From: Bacteroidota bacterium
GTDB taxonomy: Bacteria; Bacteroidota; Bacteroidia; Chitinophagales; LD1
Length of the DNA stretch: 32,827 nt
Direction of reading: 5' to 3'
NCBI GenBank assembly: GCA_026391075.1
Contig: JAPLES010000009.1
Span: 1-32,827, forward strand
Shown: one piece after another, positions 5,785 through 27,688 of the stretch
How positions within the stretch are numbered: position 1 is the first letter of the stretch
Layout: every line of letters starts with the position of its first letter
Notes under the pieces: generated by a model
What the model was told of the DNA's origin: nothing
The model's input: only the letters and a program-made list of their open reading frames with translations
The model's database searches: none
Made by a program: the position numbers and the translations under genes

Positions 5785-5801
5785 AAATCTAAACAGCTTC
5801 T
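5785..5801. repeat. Solo copy of the MITE-like terminal repeat
   Basis: A 17-bp exact match to the right end of the element at 12375-12540 (AAATCTAAACAGCTTCT; compare 12524-12540). No second end is visible here, so this is a remnant or a chance solo end. It sits 8 bp after the stop of the small conserved gene. Confidence 0.5.
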
Positions 5802-5817
5802 AAAGGCGCAATCCTGA

Positions 5818-5933
5818 GTAGTGACGCACTTTGATTTATTTATCACAAAATGTCACGCTGCGCTTGTCGAAGCGTTTTCCCTTTTATCCTTCGACAAGCT
5901 CAGGATGACATAAGCCTTAAATTCAGTCACTAC
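5818..5933. repeat. Intergenic REP-like palindrome with nested outer arms
   Basis: The inner inverted repeat pairs 5851-5872 with 5889-5910 at 19 of 22 positions; its core is CTTGTCGAAG / CTTCGACAAG. An outer 8-bp pair, GTAGTGAC (5818-5825) and GTCACTAC (5926-5933), frames it. The inner arms match the palindrome inside asnB (10301-10349), so the two are copies of one dispersed family. Such GACAAGCTCAGG-type palindromes are known as dispersed repeats in environmental bacterial genomes. The spacer 5777-5997 has nothing else that I recognise. Confidence 0.75.
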
Positions 5934-8701: not shown

Positions 8702-10651
8702 ATGTGCGGCATAGCAGGATTTATTGATTTCAACAAGAACGGAAACTTAGAGTTGCTCAAAAAAATGAGTGACACCATTCTGCATCGCGGACCCGATGAC
8801 AGCGGTCACGAATTGTTCAACACCGCGCAAGCGCAAATCGGTTTGGGTTTCAGACGGCTTTCTATCATTGAGCTTTCTGCGCTTGGTCACCAGCCCATGC
8901 AGTTTGAAGAAGCGGGGCTCACCATCATTTTCAACGGAGAGATTTACAATTTTCAGGAACTGCGAAAAGAGTTGGAACAAAACGGATACAACTTCAAATC
9001 ACATTCCGATACCGAAGTAATTTTGAAAAGCTACGCGCACTGGGGAACCAAATGTGTGGAGCGTTTCATAGGCATGTTTGCCATTGCGCTTTACGATTCA
9101 AAAAATTCGAAAGTGATTTTGTTTCGCGACCGCGCAGGAGTTAAACCTCTTTTCTTTTATCATGAAAACAATTTGCTGCTGTTTGGTTCTGAGTTGAAAA
9201 TTTTTCATGCGCATCCGCAATTCAAAAAGCAAATCAACTACAGCGCGCTCTCGCTTTATTTTCAGCGCGGCTATATTTCGGCACCGCATACTATTTTCGA
9301 AAACACCTTCAAGCTTTTGCCCGGACATTTTCTAGAGATTGATTTAAACACAAAGAAAGTTGCCGCGCAAAAATATTGGGATGTAACCGATTGTTACAAT
9401 CAACCCAAGCTCGATATTTCGTTTGCCGAAGCCAAACAGGAAACAGAAAAATTATTGCTCTCGGCTTTTCAGTATCGCATGATTGCCGATGTGCCCGTGG
9501 GTGTTTTTTTAAGTGGCGGTTACGATTCAACAGCGGTAACGGCACTGTTGCAAAAGCACTCTTCGCAAAAAATAAAAACCTTCACCATTGGTTTCGAAGA
9601 CCCGAAATATAATGAAGCGCATCATGCCAAAACAGTTGCCAATTACCTCGGCACCGAACACCTCGAGCACATTTGCACTTACAAAGATGCGCTCGACATA
9701 GTGGAGCAACTGCCGCACATTTACGATGAACCTTTTGGCGATACTTCAGCAATTCCCACCACCTTAGTCAGCCGCATGGCAAGCGAAAAAGTTACCGTGG
9801 CGCTTTCTGCCGATGGTGGCGATGAAATTTTTGCGGGCTATCCTAAATATTTCAATGCCGTTGACCGTATCAATCAAATCAATCGCATTCCTGCATTTGC
9901 ACAAAGCGTTTTTGCAAAACTGATTCCTGCATCTGTTCAGCACGATACTTCGGTGCAAAACAAATGGAGCAAACTGAAAGATTATTTTGAAAACACCGAT
10001 GATGTAGCGCGTTTCGACATCATCAGTCAGTCCATGACTTTTTACGAAACACAATGTTTGTTCAATAAAGAAATTTCAAAACTCATCACTCCGTTTGACG
10101 AAGGTTCGTTTTTGAATTCTACCAACGATATGCTTTCAAAATTTCAGGCAACCGAATACAAAGCCTATATGGTGGATGATATTTTGCAAAAGGTTGACCG
10201 CGCTACCATGAGCGTTTCGCTCGAGGGCAGAGAGCCGTTCTTAGACCAGCGCATTATTGAGTTTGTGGCGAAGTTGCCGAGTCACTTTAAATATACAGGC
10301 TGTCACCCTGAGCCTGTCGAAGGGATGCTTCGACAAGCTCAGCATGACAAGCAGGGAAAAGGCATTGCAAAATATTTACTTAAACAAATTGTGCACGATT
10401 ATGTTCCGCGCGAAATAATGGAACGCCCCAAAATGGGTTTTGGTGTGCCGCTCGAAACCTGGCTGCGCAAAGAACTCAAAGATTTATTTGTAAGCGTGCT
10501 GAACGAAGACAATCTGCGCGCGCAAAATATTTTTAATGTAGACCGCGTAATAACCATGCGCGACAAATATTTGCGTGGTGAGCAAGTTGAGTTCGGAAGA
10601 TTAAGCTACCTGTTTTTATTTCAGTTGTGGTATGCAAAGTGGATGAAGTAG
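8702..10651 (+). CDS. asnB: Asparagine synthase (glutamine-hydrolysing)
   Basis: Makes asparagine from aspartate with glutamine nitrogen and ATP. The N-terminal glutaminase domain (to about residue 215) begins MCGIAGF, with Cys2 as nucleophile, which fixes the start. RGPDDSG, FNGEIYNF and SDTEVIL follow in order. The synthetase domain carries the PP-loop FLSGGYDST near residue 270, SADGGDEIFAGYP, and a VDRATMSVSLEGREPFLD segment. At codons 534-550 the reading frame runs through a REP-like palindrome, adding CHPEPVEGMLRQAQHDK between FKYTG and QGKGIAKYLLKQI, where relatives have a short loop. The frame is kept, giving 649 residues; conserved KYLLKQIVHDYVP and RPKMGFGVP blocks follow, so the enzyme may still work. 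It is convergent with the protease gene, 10 bp away. Confidence 0.95.
   Translation: MCGIAGFIDFNKNGNLELLKKMSDTILHRGPDDSGHELFNTAQAQIGLGFRRLSIIELSALGHQPMQFEEAGLTIIFNGEIYNFQELRKELEQNGYNFKSHSDTEVILKSYAHWGTKCVERFIGMFAIALYDSKNSKVILFRDRAGVKPLFFYHENNLLLFGSELKIFHAHPQFKKQINYSALSLYFQRGYISAPHTIFENTFKLLPGHFLEIDLNTKKVAAQKYWDVTDCYNQPKLDISFAEAKQETEKLLLSAFQYRMIADVPVGVFLSGGYDSTAVTALLQKHSSQKIKTFTIGFEDPKYNEAHHAKTVANYLGTEHLEHICTYKDALDIVEQLPHIYDEPFGDTSAIPTTLVSRMASEKVTVALSADGGDEIFAGYPKYFNAVDRINQINRIPAFAQSVFAKLIPASVQHDTSVQNKWSKLKDYFENTDDVARFDIISQSMTFYETQCLFNKEISKLITPFDEGSFLNSTNDMLSKFQATEYKAYMVDDILQKVDRATMSVSLEGREPFLDQRIIEFVAKLPSHFKYTGCHPEPVEGMLRQAQHDKQGKGIAKYLLKQIVHDYVPREIMERPKMGFGVPLETWLRKELKDLFVSVLNEDNLRAQNIFNVDRVITMRDKYLRGEQVEFGRLSYLFLFQLWYAKWMK
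10301..10349. repeat. REP-like palindrome inserted in frame in asnB
   Basis: Arms 10301-10322 and 10328-10349 pair at 19 of 22 positions around a 5-nt loop. Both arms match the intergenic palindrome at 5851-5910. The element is translated as CHPEPVEGMLRQAQHDK, a peptide signature typical of these repeats when they fall in a reading frame. Confidence 0.88.
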
Positions 10652-12374: not shown

Positions 12375-12540
12375 AGAAGTTGTTTAGATTTGTATGGATA
12401 AGAATATTTATGAGCTATTTTCGAGCGAAACAAGGAAGGTTTTTGAAGCCATAATGGAATATTTCTGGCAAGAAAACCTGACGAAGTTGCAGCCGAAAAG
12501 AGCCATAAAGAAATTATTCAGATAAATCTAAACAGCTTCT
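12375..12540. mobile_element. MITE-like element with 27-bp terminal inverted repeats
   Basis: The ends 12375-12401 and 12514-12540 are inverted repeats matching at 23 of 27 positions, with an identical TGTTTAGATTT core. The whole unit is 166 bp. No obvious target-site duplication is visible. The right end alone recurs at 5785-5801. Between the ends lies one small open frame (12394-12525) whose start and stop both fall inside the repeats. This fits a non-autonomous element or an internally deleted insertion sequence; I do not recognise the parent family. It fills most of the 279-bp spacer between the protease and purF. Confidence 0.65.
12394..12525 (+). CDS. Small ORF inside the MITE-like element
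   Basis: A 43-codon frame, starting MDKNIYELFSS and ending KRAIKKLFR, runs from an ATG in the left terminal repeat to a TAA in the right one. It is lysine-rich and likely helical. It may be a remnant of a transposase with a deleted middle, or a chance frame. No ribosome-binding evidence and no recognised family. Confidence 0.3.
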   Translation: MDKNIYELFSSETRKVFEAIMEYFWQENLTKLQPKRAIKKLFR

Positions 12541-23525: not shown

Positions 23526-25544
23526 TTAGTTAGGCTTAGCTAATTGGAAGGCAACTGTTCGGTTTTGTTTCTGCAAATTTTCGGGGCAGTTTTGATTTAC
23601 ACAACCGTTGCGGCTATTGTTGCTGCCAAAGTAGAACGAGTTTATTTTGTCTATAGAAATCCCATTATCAATTAAGTAGCGAAGCACGGCATCTGACCGT
23701 TTAAGGGAAACCTGTTTCCCGTTGGTTTCATCAGCCGATGCAATAGAATAAATGCGGATGTTCAAATCAGGATGCTGTAACATTTCAATCACCGCTTTTT
23801 TCAACTCCACTTTCATTTCAGGAGTCAAATCATAACTGTTTTTTTCGAAACCCACTGCCGGTAATTCAGCCGAAATAATATTGTCTGTTATTGTCTCTTT
23901 GATGTTTACAGAGTTTTCTAAAGCTGGATTGCTAGGCGCTTGCAGATTGGTAGAAGCAACCGGTTCCGCCTTTTTTTGCACTTCGGTAATTTTTGCCTTT
24001 GCTTCCTCTTCTGCTTTTAAACGCGCGGATTCTTCCTTGTTTTTTCCTTCTGCCTCTGCACGAGCCTGCTCTTCCTCTTTCAATTTTGTTTTGTTGGCTT
24101 CTGCTGCTTTCCGTTTTGCTTCTTCTGCTTCTGCTTTTTGTTTTGCAGCAGCAATTTCCCTTTCTACTTTTTCGCGTTCGCCAGCAATTTTAGCCAAAGA
24201 ATCTTCCATTGCTTTTTGGGTGCGCAATCTTTCTTCTTCTTCTAATCTTTTGGTGGCTTCATTTTCGGTTGAGGTTTTTAGATACGCTTCTTCTTTCGCT
24301 TTTTGTTCAGCCGCCAATTTTGCTGCTACTTGTTTTCTTTCTTTTTCTGCTTGCACACGTGCCACAGAATCTTCGATAGCTTTCTTTTTAGTAGCCTCCA
24401 ACACTTGTGCTTGTTGTTGCAACAATGCGTTCATGTGCACAATAGAATCGGCAAGTAATTTTCTCTCCGCTAACTGCTTTTCCCTTTTAATCGAATCCTC
24501 AACTGCTTTGCGAACTGCTTCCTGTTTTAATTTTTCAATAGCAACTTCTTTGGCATTTTGCTCTTGTTCAGCTTTTAATTTGGCCGCTGTTTCCAAAGTC
24601 GATTTTTGTTGCGCAAGTGCTTCTGCTTTTACATGTGCCACCGAATCTGCTGCAAATTTTGCACGAGCGGTAACTACTAATTTGTTCAACGAATCTTCCA
24701 AATGTTTTCTTTCCGTTGTTTCTTTTGCAGCTTGTGTTTGTGCTGTTTTCACTTGAGCAATTGAATCCAGAACTCGTTTTGCTCTTTCTGCTGATAAAGA
24801 TTTCTTGATAGAATCCTGTGCATGTTTTTGTGCAAAAATTTCTCTTGCTTTAGTAACACTATCCTGAACAAATAAAGACCTAGCAACTTTCTTCAACGAG
24901 TCTTCCGAAGTTTTCTTTGCAACCAGTTCCTTTGTTTTGCGCTGTTGTTCTGCTTTTACTTGTGTGATGGAATCAGCAACATGTTCAGCGCGAATGGCGG
25001 CTTGCATTTTATTCAAAGAATCTTCAACTGCTCTTTTAGCCGCTTGTTCTTTTGCTATACGAATTTGCTCCGCCTTAACCTGTGCAACTGAATCGGCAAC
25101 AAATTTCGTTCTTACTAGTGCTTCCACTTTTTTTACTGAATCTTCAACCGCTTTTCGCACAGCTGTTTCCTTGGCAATACGAACTTGTTCAGCCTTAGCC
25201 TGAATTATAGAATCTGCTACAAATTTTTTACGCGCTTCAATTTTAGATGGAGAAAGTGTTCCACCCCAAGCAGCTAATGCAGAGTCTAAAAGGTCAATAG
25301 AATTTAAGTGGGTGTTTTTTGCTTTTGCCGTGTCAATGGAATCATTATGTACTTTGATTCTTACCTGTGCCTTTGCATTCGTAATCGAATCGCTTACAAA
25401 TTTAATTCGGGCAAGCATGCTTGCTTTTTTCACAGAATCATTAACAGCTTTTTTAGCAGCAAGTTCTTTTGCTAAGCGCTGTTGCTCTGTTTTAACTTGT
25501 GTAATTGAATCCAGAATTAGTTTTGCTTTTTCTGCGGCCAACAC
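23526..25544 (-). CDS. Giant OmpA-type stalk protein, C-terminal part after frameshift
   Basis: This frame carries the rest of the coiled-coil stalk and a C-terminal OmpA-like peptidoglycan-binding domain (last ~125 residues: LPAVGFEKNSYDLTPEM, then SLKRSDAVLRYLIDNGISIDKI, with a cysteine pair NGCVNQNCPEN). It lacks a signal peptide. The listed start is a TTG inside a repeat unit; the frame is in fact open further right to about 25742, where it meets the N-terminal part in another frame. Joining the two with one added base gives a single protein of 1387 residues. The stalk is rich in Ala, Lys and Glu with the recurring motif DS(I/V/L)xxxK, and includes long low-complexity stretches of KAEEEAK type. 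Confidence 0.8.
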   Translation of the reverse strand: MLAAEKAKLILDSITQVKTEQQRLAKELAAKKAVNDSVKKASMLARIKFVSDSITNAKAQVRIKVHNDSIDTAKAKNTHLNSIDLLDSALAAWGGTLSPSKIEARKKFVADSIIQAKAEQVRIAKETAVRKAVEDSVKKVEALVRTKFVADSVAQVKAEQIRIAKEQAAKRAVEDSLNKMQAAIRAEHVADSITQVKAEQQRKTKELVAKKTSEDSLKKVARSLFVQDSVTKAREIFAQKHAQDSIKKSLSAERAKRVLDSIAQVKTAQTQAAKETTERKHLEDSLNKLVVTARAKFAADSVAHVKAEALAQQKSTLETAAKLKAEQEQNAKEVAIEKLKQEAVRKAVEDSIKREKQLAERKLLADSIVHMNALLQQQAQVLEATKKKAIEDSVARVQAEKERKQVAAKLAAEQKAKEEAYLKTSTENEATKRLEEEERLRTQKAMEDSLAKIAGEREKVEREIAAAKQKAEAEEAKRKAAEANKTKLKEEEQARAEAEGKNKEESARLKAEEEAKAKITEVQKKAEPVASTNLQAPSNPALENSVNIKETITDNIISAELPAVGFEKNSYDLTPEMKVELKKAVIEMLQHPDLNIRIYSIASADETNGKQVSLKRSDAVLRYLIDNGISIDKINSFYFGSNNSRNGCVNQNCPENLQKQNRTVAFQLAKPN

Positions 25545-25550
25545 TTTTTT

Positions 25551-26170
25551 GATAGAATCCTGCTCCTGCTTATTCGCAAAAATTTCTTTTGCTTTTGTTA
25601 AGCTGTCTTGAACAAAGATTGCCCGTGCAACTTTCCTTAGTGAATCTTCCGTAGCTTTCTTAGCAGCAAGTTCTTTTGCTCTGCGCTGTTGCTCTGCTTT
25701 AACTTGTGTAATTGAATCCTGAATTAGTTTTGCTTTTTCTGCGCTAACACTTTTTTGATAGAATCCTGCTCCTGCTTCTTCGCAAAAATTTCTTTTGCTT
25801 TTGTTAAGCTGTCTTGAACAAAGATTACTCGTGCCACTTTCCTTAGTGAATCTTCCGTAGCTTTCTTAGCAGCAAGTTCTTTTGCTTTACGCTGTTGATC
25901 TGCTTTTACCTGGGTGATTGAATCCTGAATTAGTTTTGCTTTTTCTGCAGCTAACGCTTTTTTGATAGAATCCTGCTCCTGCTTCTTCGCAAAAATTTCT
26001 TTTGCTTTTGTTAAGCTGTCTTGAACAAAGATTGAACGTGCAACTTTCCTCAACGAATCTTCTGTAGTTTTTTTAGCAACAAGTTCTTTTGCTTTACGCT
26101 GTTGATCTGCTTTTACCTGGGTGATTGAATCCTGAATTAGTTTTGCTTTTTCTGCGGCTAAAACTTTCTT
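25551..26170. repeat. 207-bp tandem repeat array in the OmpA stalk
   Basis: The landmark GATAGAATCC recurs at 25551, 25757 and 25964, and in diverged form (GATTGAATCT) at 26171. The spacings are 206, 207 and 207 bp. Each unit encodes 69 residues (DSIKK..., DSITQVKA, DSLRKVAR, FVQDSLTKAK, EIFAKKQEQ). The three units are nearly identical, and a more diverged unit appears near 24807. The 206-bp unit contains the frameshift. Confidence 0.88.
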
Positions 26171-27688
26171 GATTGAATCTTGTTCAAACTTTTTAGCCAG
26201 AGCTTCTTTTGCTCGCTTGGCTGAGTCCAAAACAAAAACCGCGTGCACCGCTTTCTTGATAGAATCCTCCACCGTTTTTTTCCATGCAATTTCCTTGGCA
26301 GCATTTTCCCGCTCTGTTTTGGCTTTACTAACCGAATCCTGAATAGATTTTAAATGTGTCGCCAATGCCACACGCTTCAATGAATCTTCAACCTGTTTTT
26401 TTGCAGCAGCTTCTTTGAGCGCTAATTCTCTTTCGGCTTTAGCCTTCGTCATAGCCTGTTGTTTCAAATTTTCAGCTGCTATGGAATCATCTTTGCGCTT
26501 TTGATTTTGCGTAGCAGAAGCCATCAATATTCTTTCACTCTCATCTTTTACTTTCATTAATGAATCTTCATACGCTTGTTGTTTTGTTGCAAAATCCTCT
26601 GCAATTTTTTTCGATTGTTCTTCATCTTTCTGCTTCTTTATTTGTGCTTCAATTTGTAATGATTTTGTTTCTGCCTCAACTTGTAATTTTTTAATTTCTT
26701 CCTGATGTTTTGTAACACTTTCTGAAGGTGCCTTTTTAACCGGCTCGTCTTTTATTACTACCACTTCTAAATTCGGGTCTTGCTTTTCTTTCTTTTTGTT
26801 CCCTCCTGTAGAAATAGAAGTTCCGCCACCACCGCCTTTCTTTCGGTCTTCTTCTTTTTTCTTCATCTCCTCCAACTGTTTCTTGGTTTCTTCCAACTCA
26901 CGTTGAAGTTTTGCTACAGTCTCATCGCTTTCCTTTTTCTTTTTTTCTTCAACTACAAACGGCTGTTTCACTTCCGATAAAGAATTGGTGGGAGTTGCTT
27001 TTGTATCGTTTGATGCTGCAATTGTTTTTTGAAGTGCCGTAGGATATTTTTCCTTAAACGAAACAGGGTCAACATACTGAACGGGGTCGAGATAAATATC
27101 GAGTTTATAATCGAGCGGCTGATTAAAACCAATGGTGGACACATAAAAACTTGTGTCCTTAAATTGATTGTAAATTCCTATTGACCGTTTGTCAATAGAC
27201 ACTTTGTAATTGGTTTCGTATTCGAGTTTGAAATTGTAAAGTCCATCAATGCCTGTAATAATGCGGTCTTCTTTTTTAGTCATTACATTTTTTAAAACCA
27301 CTGCTGCCTCTTTAATCGGAAAATTTTCTTCGCGACTTTTCAGCATTCCCATCAATCGCATACCATCTTTCTTCAAACGTACACTGATGTATTCGGGAAA
27401 AGGTTTCCCTGCCTTATCGGTTTTTATAGTAAACGTTGTATCGGTAAAACCTGAGTACGAAATTTTTACAGTGTAGGTTTGGTTTTTGTTAACGTTGAAT
27501 TTATAGCCACCATCAAAATATGTTTTGTAGGTGCCAAATGGTTTTTCGTCTTCAGTAACTTCAACTTTGGCTTGAAAAATAGGGGAGGAGAGGCTATCGG
27601 TTTTTTTAACCACGCCATAAAAACTTTGCGCACTCAATTGAGCGCAAACGAAAACCAAAGCCGATAAAAAAATCAGTTTCCCTTTCAC
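25724..27688 (-). CDS. Giant OmpA-type stalk protein, N-terminal part before frameshift
   Basis: A signal peptide MKGKLIFLSALVFVCAQLSA (1-20) is followed by two beta-sandwich modules like carboxypeptidase-regulatory/CNA-B domains (about 22-105 and 108-200; GGYKFNVNKNQTYTVKISYSGF and GIDGLYNFKLEYETNYKVSI). A charged coiled coil then starts near 240, interrupted by a glycine linker (GGGGGTSISTGG, about 285-296). The rest is a repetitive helical stalk. The frame ends at a premature stop (KKVLAQKKQN) when one base is lost at about 25741-25744. It begins 24 bp after uvrA on the same strand and is probably in its operon. With the C-terminal part it would tether the outer membrane to peptidoglycan across a long stalk. 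This could be a true pseudogene, a phase state or a sequencing error in the repeat. Confidence 0.85.
   Translation of the reverse strand: MKGKLIFLSALVFVCAQLSAQSFYGVVKKTDSLSSPIFQAKVEVTEDEKPFGTYKTYFDGGYKFNVNKNQTYTVKISYSGFTDTTFTIKTDKAGKPFPEYISVRLKKDGMRLMGMLKSREENFPIKEAAVVLKNVMTKKEDRIITGIDGLYNFKLEYETNYKVSIDKRSIGIYNQFKDTSFYVSTIGFNQPLDYKLDIYLDPVQYVDPVSFKEKYPTALQKTIAASNDTKATPTNSLSEVKQPFVVEEKKKKESDETVAKLQRELEETKKQLEEMKKKEEDRKKGGGGGTSISTGGNKKKEKQDPNLEVVVIKDEPVKKAPSESVTKHQEEIKKLQVEAETKSLQIEAQIKKQKDEEQSKKIAEDFATKQQAYEDSLMKVKDESERILMASATQNQKRKDDSIAAENLKQQAMTKAKAERELALKEAAAKKQVEDSLKRVALATHLKSIQDSVSKAKTERENAAKEIAWKKTVEDSIKKAVHAVFVLDSAKRAKEALAKKFEQDSIKKVLAAEKAKLIQDSITQVKADQQRKAKELVAKKTTEDSLRKVARSIFVQDSLTKAKEIFAKKQEQDSIKKALAAEKAKLIQDSITQVKADQQRKAKELAAKKATEDSLRKVARVIFVQDSLTKAKEIFAKKQEQDSIKKVLAQKKQN

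Follow-up and report, generated by a model that had tools for sequence, protein, structure and literature searches.

Palindromic repeats read in frame inside genes have already been published, both as REPs (PMC3733652) and as the RPEs of Rickettsia (PMC3767692). The available text of the first study describes intragenic REPs of the GTAG/CGTC super-families that lie in frame within ORFs and encode 20-30 residues, places such REPs also in Bacteroidetes, reports different REPs near the same recB site in two Xanthomonas species and, in its Table 1, lists CGTC repeats without an associated transposase gene (PMC3733652). RPEs within Rickettsia genes had been known already before the second study. 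The insertions of RPE-4, -6 and -7 were located in solvent-exposed parts of proteins and, as far as the available text goes, the choice between insertion hotspots and a common origin was discussed and left unsettled (PMC3767692).

The repeat family described here resembles these systems in part. Like the GTAG/CGTC REPs, as portrayed in the accessible text, it carries a TGTC/CGTC tag, forms inverted dimers and is mostly intergenic with some copies in frame; it differs from the CGTC REPs in having two G/A mismatches in the stem and no CCA tail (PMC3733652). With RPE-4, -6 and -7 it shares palindromes bearing an ATGAC motif that preserve the frame of ORFs, a likeness of behaviour and of the ATGAC end; in the portion of that report at hand, however, RPE insertions occupy the same sites in all Rickettsia orthologues aligned, whereas here sister species keep empty sites (PMC3767692). 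The REPINs of Pseudomonas are likewise inverted REP doublets predicted to fold as one hairpin, but the accessible part of their description presents them as extragenic and tied to RAYT genes, while some doublets here are intragenic and no cognate RAYT was found (PMC3116915). What is newer here is the set of recent insertions with known empty sites, a GH3 loop that holds two REP families in two species, and a cluster of substitutions in asnB. In the text of the open-licence literature, no mention was found of the exact core and peptide strings, and the same literature gave no account of in-frame REP insertion in Flavobacter.

A REP doublet within an asparagine synthase gene

The window, that is the whole stretch of 32,827 nt that was analysed, belongs to a draft genome of 3.6 Mb in 91 contigs (source genome, G000). 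The following features are central to the analysis:

8702..10651, + strand: asnB-type gene (asparagine synthase, glutamine-hydrolysing) that bears the insert; 649 aa; PF00733, GATase_7, TIGR01536
10298..10357, + strand: 20-codon insert relative to two sister species, codons 533-552, from the alignment with G015 and G004
10301..10349, + strand: REP doublet, two REP units in inverted order with stem triplets ACC and ATG and a TGTC tag at each outer end, from the fold and the comparison of units
10268..10297, + strand: the 30 nt that immediately precede the insert, holding 12 substitutions unique to the source genome (mean 1.2 per 30 nt)
5851..5910, no strand assigned: second REP doublet of the same family, intergenic, with arms that match the asnB palindrome

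From its sequence, the product of the ORF at 8702-10651 is a predicted class-II asparagine synthase. It contains PF00733 (E 1.1e-90) and GATase_7, passes the cut-off of TIGR01536 (asn_synth_AEB; 460.7 bits, cut-off 267.1) and keeps the invariant alignment columns C2, S271-G273, D275 and S276, which correspond to Cys2 and the SGGxDS motif. The highest raw score was obtained with TIGR03108 (528.9 bits), under the cut-off of 816.9, and the E. coli-type AsnB model NF006949 also scores below its cut-off (271.9, cut-off 499); the exact substrate therefore remains predicted. The AlphaFold model has a mean pLDDT of 87.4 and matches 7ylz (Z 35.0, rmsd 2.7, 543 residues aligned) and E. coli AsnB 1ct9 (Z 31.8, rmsd 3.0, 478 aligned).

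The palindrome at 10301-10349 is translated as CHPEPVEGMLRQAQHD, and the asnB frame continues beyond it. The original prediction, which had proposed that the frame was kept with a gain of about 17-20 residues, can be made precise: orthologues in G015 (96% protein identity) and G004 (95%), both of the same genus, are without exactly 20 codons at this site. The 60-nt insert thus comprises the 49-nt palindrome and 11 nt split over both sides. Alignment with relatives had been suggested as a check of its uniqueness, and the insert is absent from the site in all 23 aligned homologues (G015, G004 and 21 others), none of which carries the peptide. An ancient AsnB loop is consequently ruled out as its source. 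In phmmer alignments that are weak and local in this part, human ASNS shows a gap precisely at the insert and the alignment of E. coli AsnB ends just ahead of it.

As the prediction had stated, the palindrome is a dispersed repeat. The core CTGAGCNTGTCGAAG, with at most one mismatch, has 57 + 64 = 121 matches in the 3.6-Mb genome, and the reversed pattern has 0 + 0. As single-stranded DNA the asnB 49-mer reaches -17.1 kcal/mol, the whole doublet folding as one hairpin (z -6.3), and none of 200 shuffles was equally stable. These counts and this fold rule out a chance palindrome. Neither of the two outcomes named as refuting the original prediction was observed, since the peptide is missing from the aligned homologues and the palindrome abounds elsewhere in the genome. 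The arms of the asnB palindrome do match those of the intergenic copy at 5851-5910 (91-92%), and the interval around that copy has no counterpart in the corresponding stretch of G015. Elsewhere in the window, the 166-nt stretch at 12375-12540 is enclosed by a 27-nt inverted repeat with 85% complementarity; part of the arm of that repeat recurs at about 5785-5802, shortly before the intergenic REP at 5851.

Taken as a whole, these data make it very probable that a REPIN-like element entered asnB after the split from the two sisters, as a frame-keeping insertion tolerated in a loop. The proposed course of events is that a copy of the doublet, presumably moving as a unit, entered the gene once the species had separated from its two closest relatives and landed in a predicted loop of the synthetase domain, flanked in the model by the helices 527-530 and 558-565.

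The enzyme and the sequence flanking the insert

In the predicted structure, pLDDT falls below 50 only at residues 535-552, a drop that is partly trivial because the insert is found in no aligned homologue. AsnB would most likely retain its activity, the added loop being disordered. The gene, which the original prediction held to have survived the insertion, gives no sign of decay at the sequence level: its frame is open and the enzyme blocks that follow the insert are intact, with K557, P569, R575, K577, F580 and P583 among the invariant columns kept. Its dN/dS is 0.051 and 0.061 in the comparisons that include the source genome and 0.042 between G015 and G004; these values average the time before and after the insertion, such that a very recent loss of function would leave no trace.

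Could the insert nonetheless have inactivated asnB, leaving an early pseudogene that is open by chance while a paralogue supplies the function? The AsnB query has seven matches in its own genome, itself included, the end of the insert lies 25 residues short of the invariant K577, which we take to be the catalytic lysine of the family, and the lineage-specific amino-acid changes are 15 in the source genome compared with 9 in G015 and 14 in G004. Against these points stand the full-length open frame, a dN/dS of 0.05-0.06 that is near the value of the sister pair, and the retention of the invariant columns, and we consider inactivation improbable. The same seven matches leave the earlier description of asnB as an essential gene unsupported, since the loss of this copy might be tolerated.

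A second question concerns the way in which the insert arrived. The 12 substitutions in the 30 nt at its 5' side are mostly synonymous; the maxima in the sisters are 5, and none of 5000 shuffles reached 12. As REP sequence accounts for only 49 nt of the insert's 60 and substitutions cluster so densely on the 5' side, this was not a clean insertion. Such a cluster of source-specific, mostly synonymous changes is what recombination with a diverged, REP-bearing homologue could leave if it brought in the REP together with its flank. This flank version was sought in 29 other AsnB loci and was found in none of them, the best match being 32/42 nt, and we regard such an origin as rather unlikely.

The flanks of in-frame doublets in two other genes, mnmG and a GH3 glycosidase, present a mixed picture. 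In mnmG of G004, the flanks contain 7 and 13 specific changes per 10 codons (about 1.4 expected), but the same flanks in the insert-free G000 also contain 5 and 3 (2.0 expected), the alignment of this loop being uncertain. The flanks of the GH3 insert in G000 show 1 and 6 changes within 10 codons (1.3 expected) and, when the range is widened to 15 codons, 2 and 13 (2.0 expected). The counts differ among asnB, mnmG and GH3, and the effect on substitutions is therefore not uniform. The clusters may be a footprint of insertion, a footprint of recombination, or plain variability of the loops.

Structure, distribution and candidate movers of the family

The units were characterized from 67 elements (115 units) of the source genome, read from fetched stretches and from the window: 45 inverted pairs in one order, 8 in the other order, 13 single units and 1 direct pair. 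A unit of about 25 nt consists of TGTC, a stem triplet, the core and, usually, a complementary triplet. The TGTC tag, one of the forms (CGTC, TGTC or CCTC) that the CGTC super-family bears outside its stem, is present in 111/115 units. Complementarity at the three stem pairs holds in 109, 110 and 97 of the 115 even though their letters vary, which amounts to strong covariation. Single units fold no more stably than shuffles, and the hairpin of the unit accordingly rests on covariation, not on energy. By its form, the palindrome is a REP doublet, or REPIN.

Within a pair, the units seldom match. In 51/53 pairs of the source genome, the asnB pair included, they carry different stem triplets, the commonest pairings being ATG+ACC (20 pairs) and ATC+ACG (15 pairs). 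Under random re-pairing, pairs with identical triplets number 10.1 on average, and two or fewer occurred in only 10 of 10,000 shuffles. Compared with the CGTC stem, which spans 8-9 bp, has A-T pairs at its first and second positions and closes on a loop of 4-5 nt, the first base here is A in 111/115 units and the second is T in 61/115, with G/A mismatches inside and a weak fold of the unit. After the stem, the first position is mixed (T46 A29 C25 G15), as are the next two, so that there is no CCA tail, and membership in the CGTC super-family is therefore not claimed.

The family is abundant in 3/27 genomes of the genus and family. Exact cores number 100 in the source genome, 72 in G015 and 105 in G004; among the other 24 genomes, 20 have no core and 4 have 1 to 4. 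In a sample of the phylum, at least one exact core was found in 103/395 genomes and 69/171 genera, about a dozen of the single matches being possibly due to chance by our own estimate, and the reversed control occurred in one genome (G315). Several of these genomes hold tens of copies, with a maximum of 204 in G427. A longer pattern matched at least 114 stretches in named genomes, about 8 matches being expected by chance overall (an estimate); among the 80 matches listed, 57 have Bacteroidota titles and 23 come from other groups. Given this scattered spread, the family is old or was transferred, and it was amplified in three sister species of the genus.

The mover was sought among two types of transposase genes. 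Three RAYT-like genes are present in the source genome, L033 (85.8 bits, cut-off 80; the only one to pass), L032 (75.9) and L034 (65.0). Each is adjoined by its own distinct hairpins, of other kinds than the REP studied here, and none of the three is put forward as the mover. Among 30 RAYT loci from 19 genomes, one has the core of the family, about 1.4 kb from the gene. Among the Y1 matches, the strongest (L031) was set aside as IS200-like. When 249 loci were scanned with six Y1 proteins, 3 matches were obtained; Y1-like genes lie 379 nt (L240) and 218 nt (L252) from a core, with the IS200-like L176 as the best query, and 754 nt (L169). No transposase flanked by the family was thus found in the source genome or among the RAYT loci of the 19 genomes.

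With simple ORF calling, 58 of the 67 elements lie between ORFs, 7 lie inside ORFs and 2 were left unclassed. REPs in general favour unidirectional and convergent over divergent gene pairs; the intergenic elements here are found between unidirectional (34), convergent (16) and divergent (8) neighbors, a small shift from the background of ORF pairs in the same stretches (168, 55 and 51). A sister element occupies the same site for at least 24 of the 67, the sisters having been read in part.

In-frame copies in other genes

The original prediction had asked for a genome-wide count of copies and for the share that falls in frame in genes. Five of the 7 elements inside ORFs are either at the edge of the ORF or in an ORF that is short, and well inside long genes there are 2/67 elements in the source genome (asnB and GH3), 2/33 in G015 (both in GH3) and 1/61 in G004 (mnmG). 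These five of 161 elements in three genomes are all frame-preserving pairs. ORFs with an element near the N-terminus only (L110, L112 and others) were set aside, a later start codon being likely, and a MutT-like ORF of G015 (L322, 208 aa; 49.2 bits, below the cut-off of 97.9), which reads through a doublet close to the C-terminus, was left out of the internal cases. The in-frame copies are the following, the last two from more distant genomes:

L343 338-2299, G004, - strand: mnmG with an in-frame REP doublet that is missing in both sister species
L328 1589-1651 and 2324-2386, G015: GH3 glycosidase with in-frame doublets in two loops
L107 2974-3030, G000: GH3 glycosidase with an in-frame doublet
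L196 4466-7318, Ulvibacter MAG, - strand: metH (methionine synthase) with a REP in frame
L222 131-1870, Proteobacteria MAG, - strand: recN (RecN) with a REP in frame

The TGA within CTGAGC hits only one frame per strand, which leaves four of the six frames through the doublet open. Inserts divisible by three would thereby lengthen a protein by about 20 residues that it tolerates, and insertions of any other kind into genes would presumably be purged. It is also conceivable that the asnB insert was kept as useful, the peptide or an RNA hairpin tuning the enzyme or the mRNA. The doublet does fold strongly as DNA, and the available text of PMC3733652 proposes that REPs act in mRNA. The elements nevertheless occur in proteins that have no relation to one another, and their frame, order and spacing differ from case to case, a pattern that fits tolerance better than function, and we consider retention for a benefit very improbable.

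A better example in a core gene than asnB is mnmG of G004, which has a single match in its genome and scores 820.9 bits with TIGR00136. It has 654 codons, against 635 in the orthologues of G000 and G015, in a loop that varies among the species aligned.

The GH3 gene has two loops of this kind. In an alignment of ten orthologues, two kinds of doublet occupy loop 1, one of CTGAGC type in G015 and one of a different, TGTC-type REP in G017 (L302), whereas the loop is empty in eight (G000, G004, G010, G016, G001, G011, G006 and G014). The REP core of G017 loop 1 has 16 copies in that genome and 0 to 2 in the nine other genomes searched. Trees of the sequence around loop 1 do not join G015 and G017, with modest support (0.74-0.87). 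G015 is placed differently in different parts of the gene, which makes recombination likely. Independent insertion into loop 1 is favoured by this sequence comparison, but not proven. Loop 2 has doublets in G000 and G015, in opposite order. Another dispersed palindromic repeat, CACCTCCGCCAGCGGAGG, is in frame in the GH3 gene of G000 (L107), G015 and G001; it is present in 8/10 genomes of the genus searched, with loci L107, L097 and L111 in G000.

Beyond the genus, 108 element clusters were recognized among the 80 named loci listed, and 10 of them lie inside 9 ORFs of 150 aa or more that leave 40 aa on either side of the element. Of the 8 such ORFs tested, 2 (metH of L196 and recN of L222) belong to known families that span the element, 4 have no Pfam family and 2 have a family match that does not span it.

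We tentatively propose, at less than even confidence, that in-frame REP doublets land repeatedly in particular variable loops of enzymes and that insertion may leave a burst of substitutions nearby, as next to the asnB insert. If the loops are such hotspots, the choice between hotspot and common origin raised for the RPEs would be testable here, since the empty sites are known. More generally, recent in-frame insertions with empty sites in sister species offer a direct test of the gain of protein segments, of tolerant sites and of any mutagenic effect of insertion. For annotation, environmental proteins with strings such as LRQAQHD, VTLSLSKG or CHPEPVEG may owe them to the translation of REPs rather than to motif conservation. 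Repeats of another sort are present in the window at 23526-27688 (- strand), where two adjacent ORFs have in common long tandem repeats, with spacings of about 207 and 120 nt, which code for charged segments.
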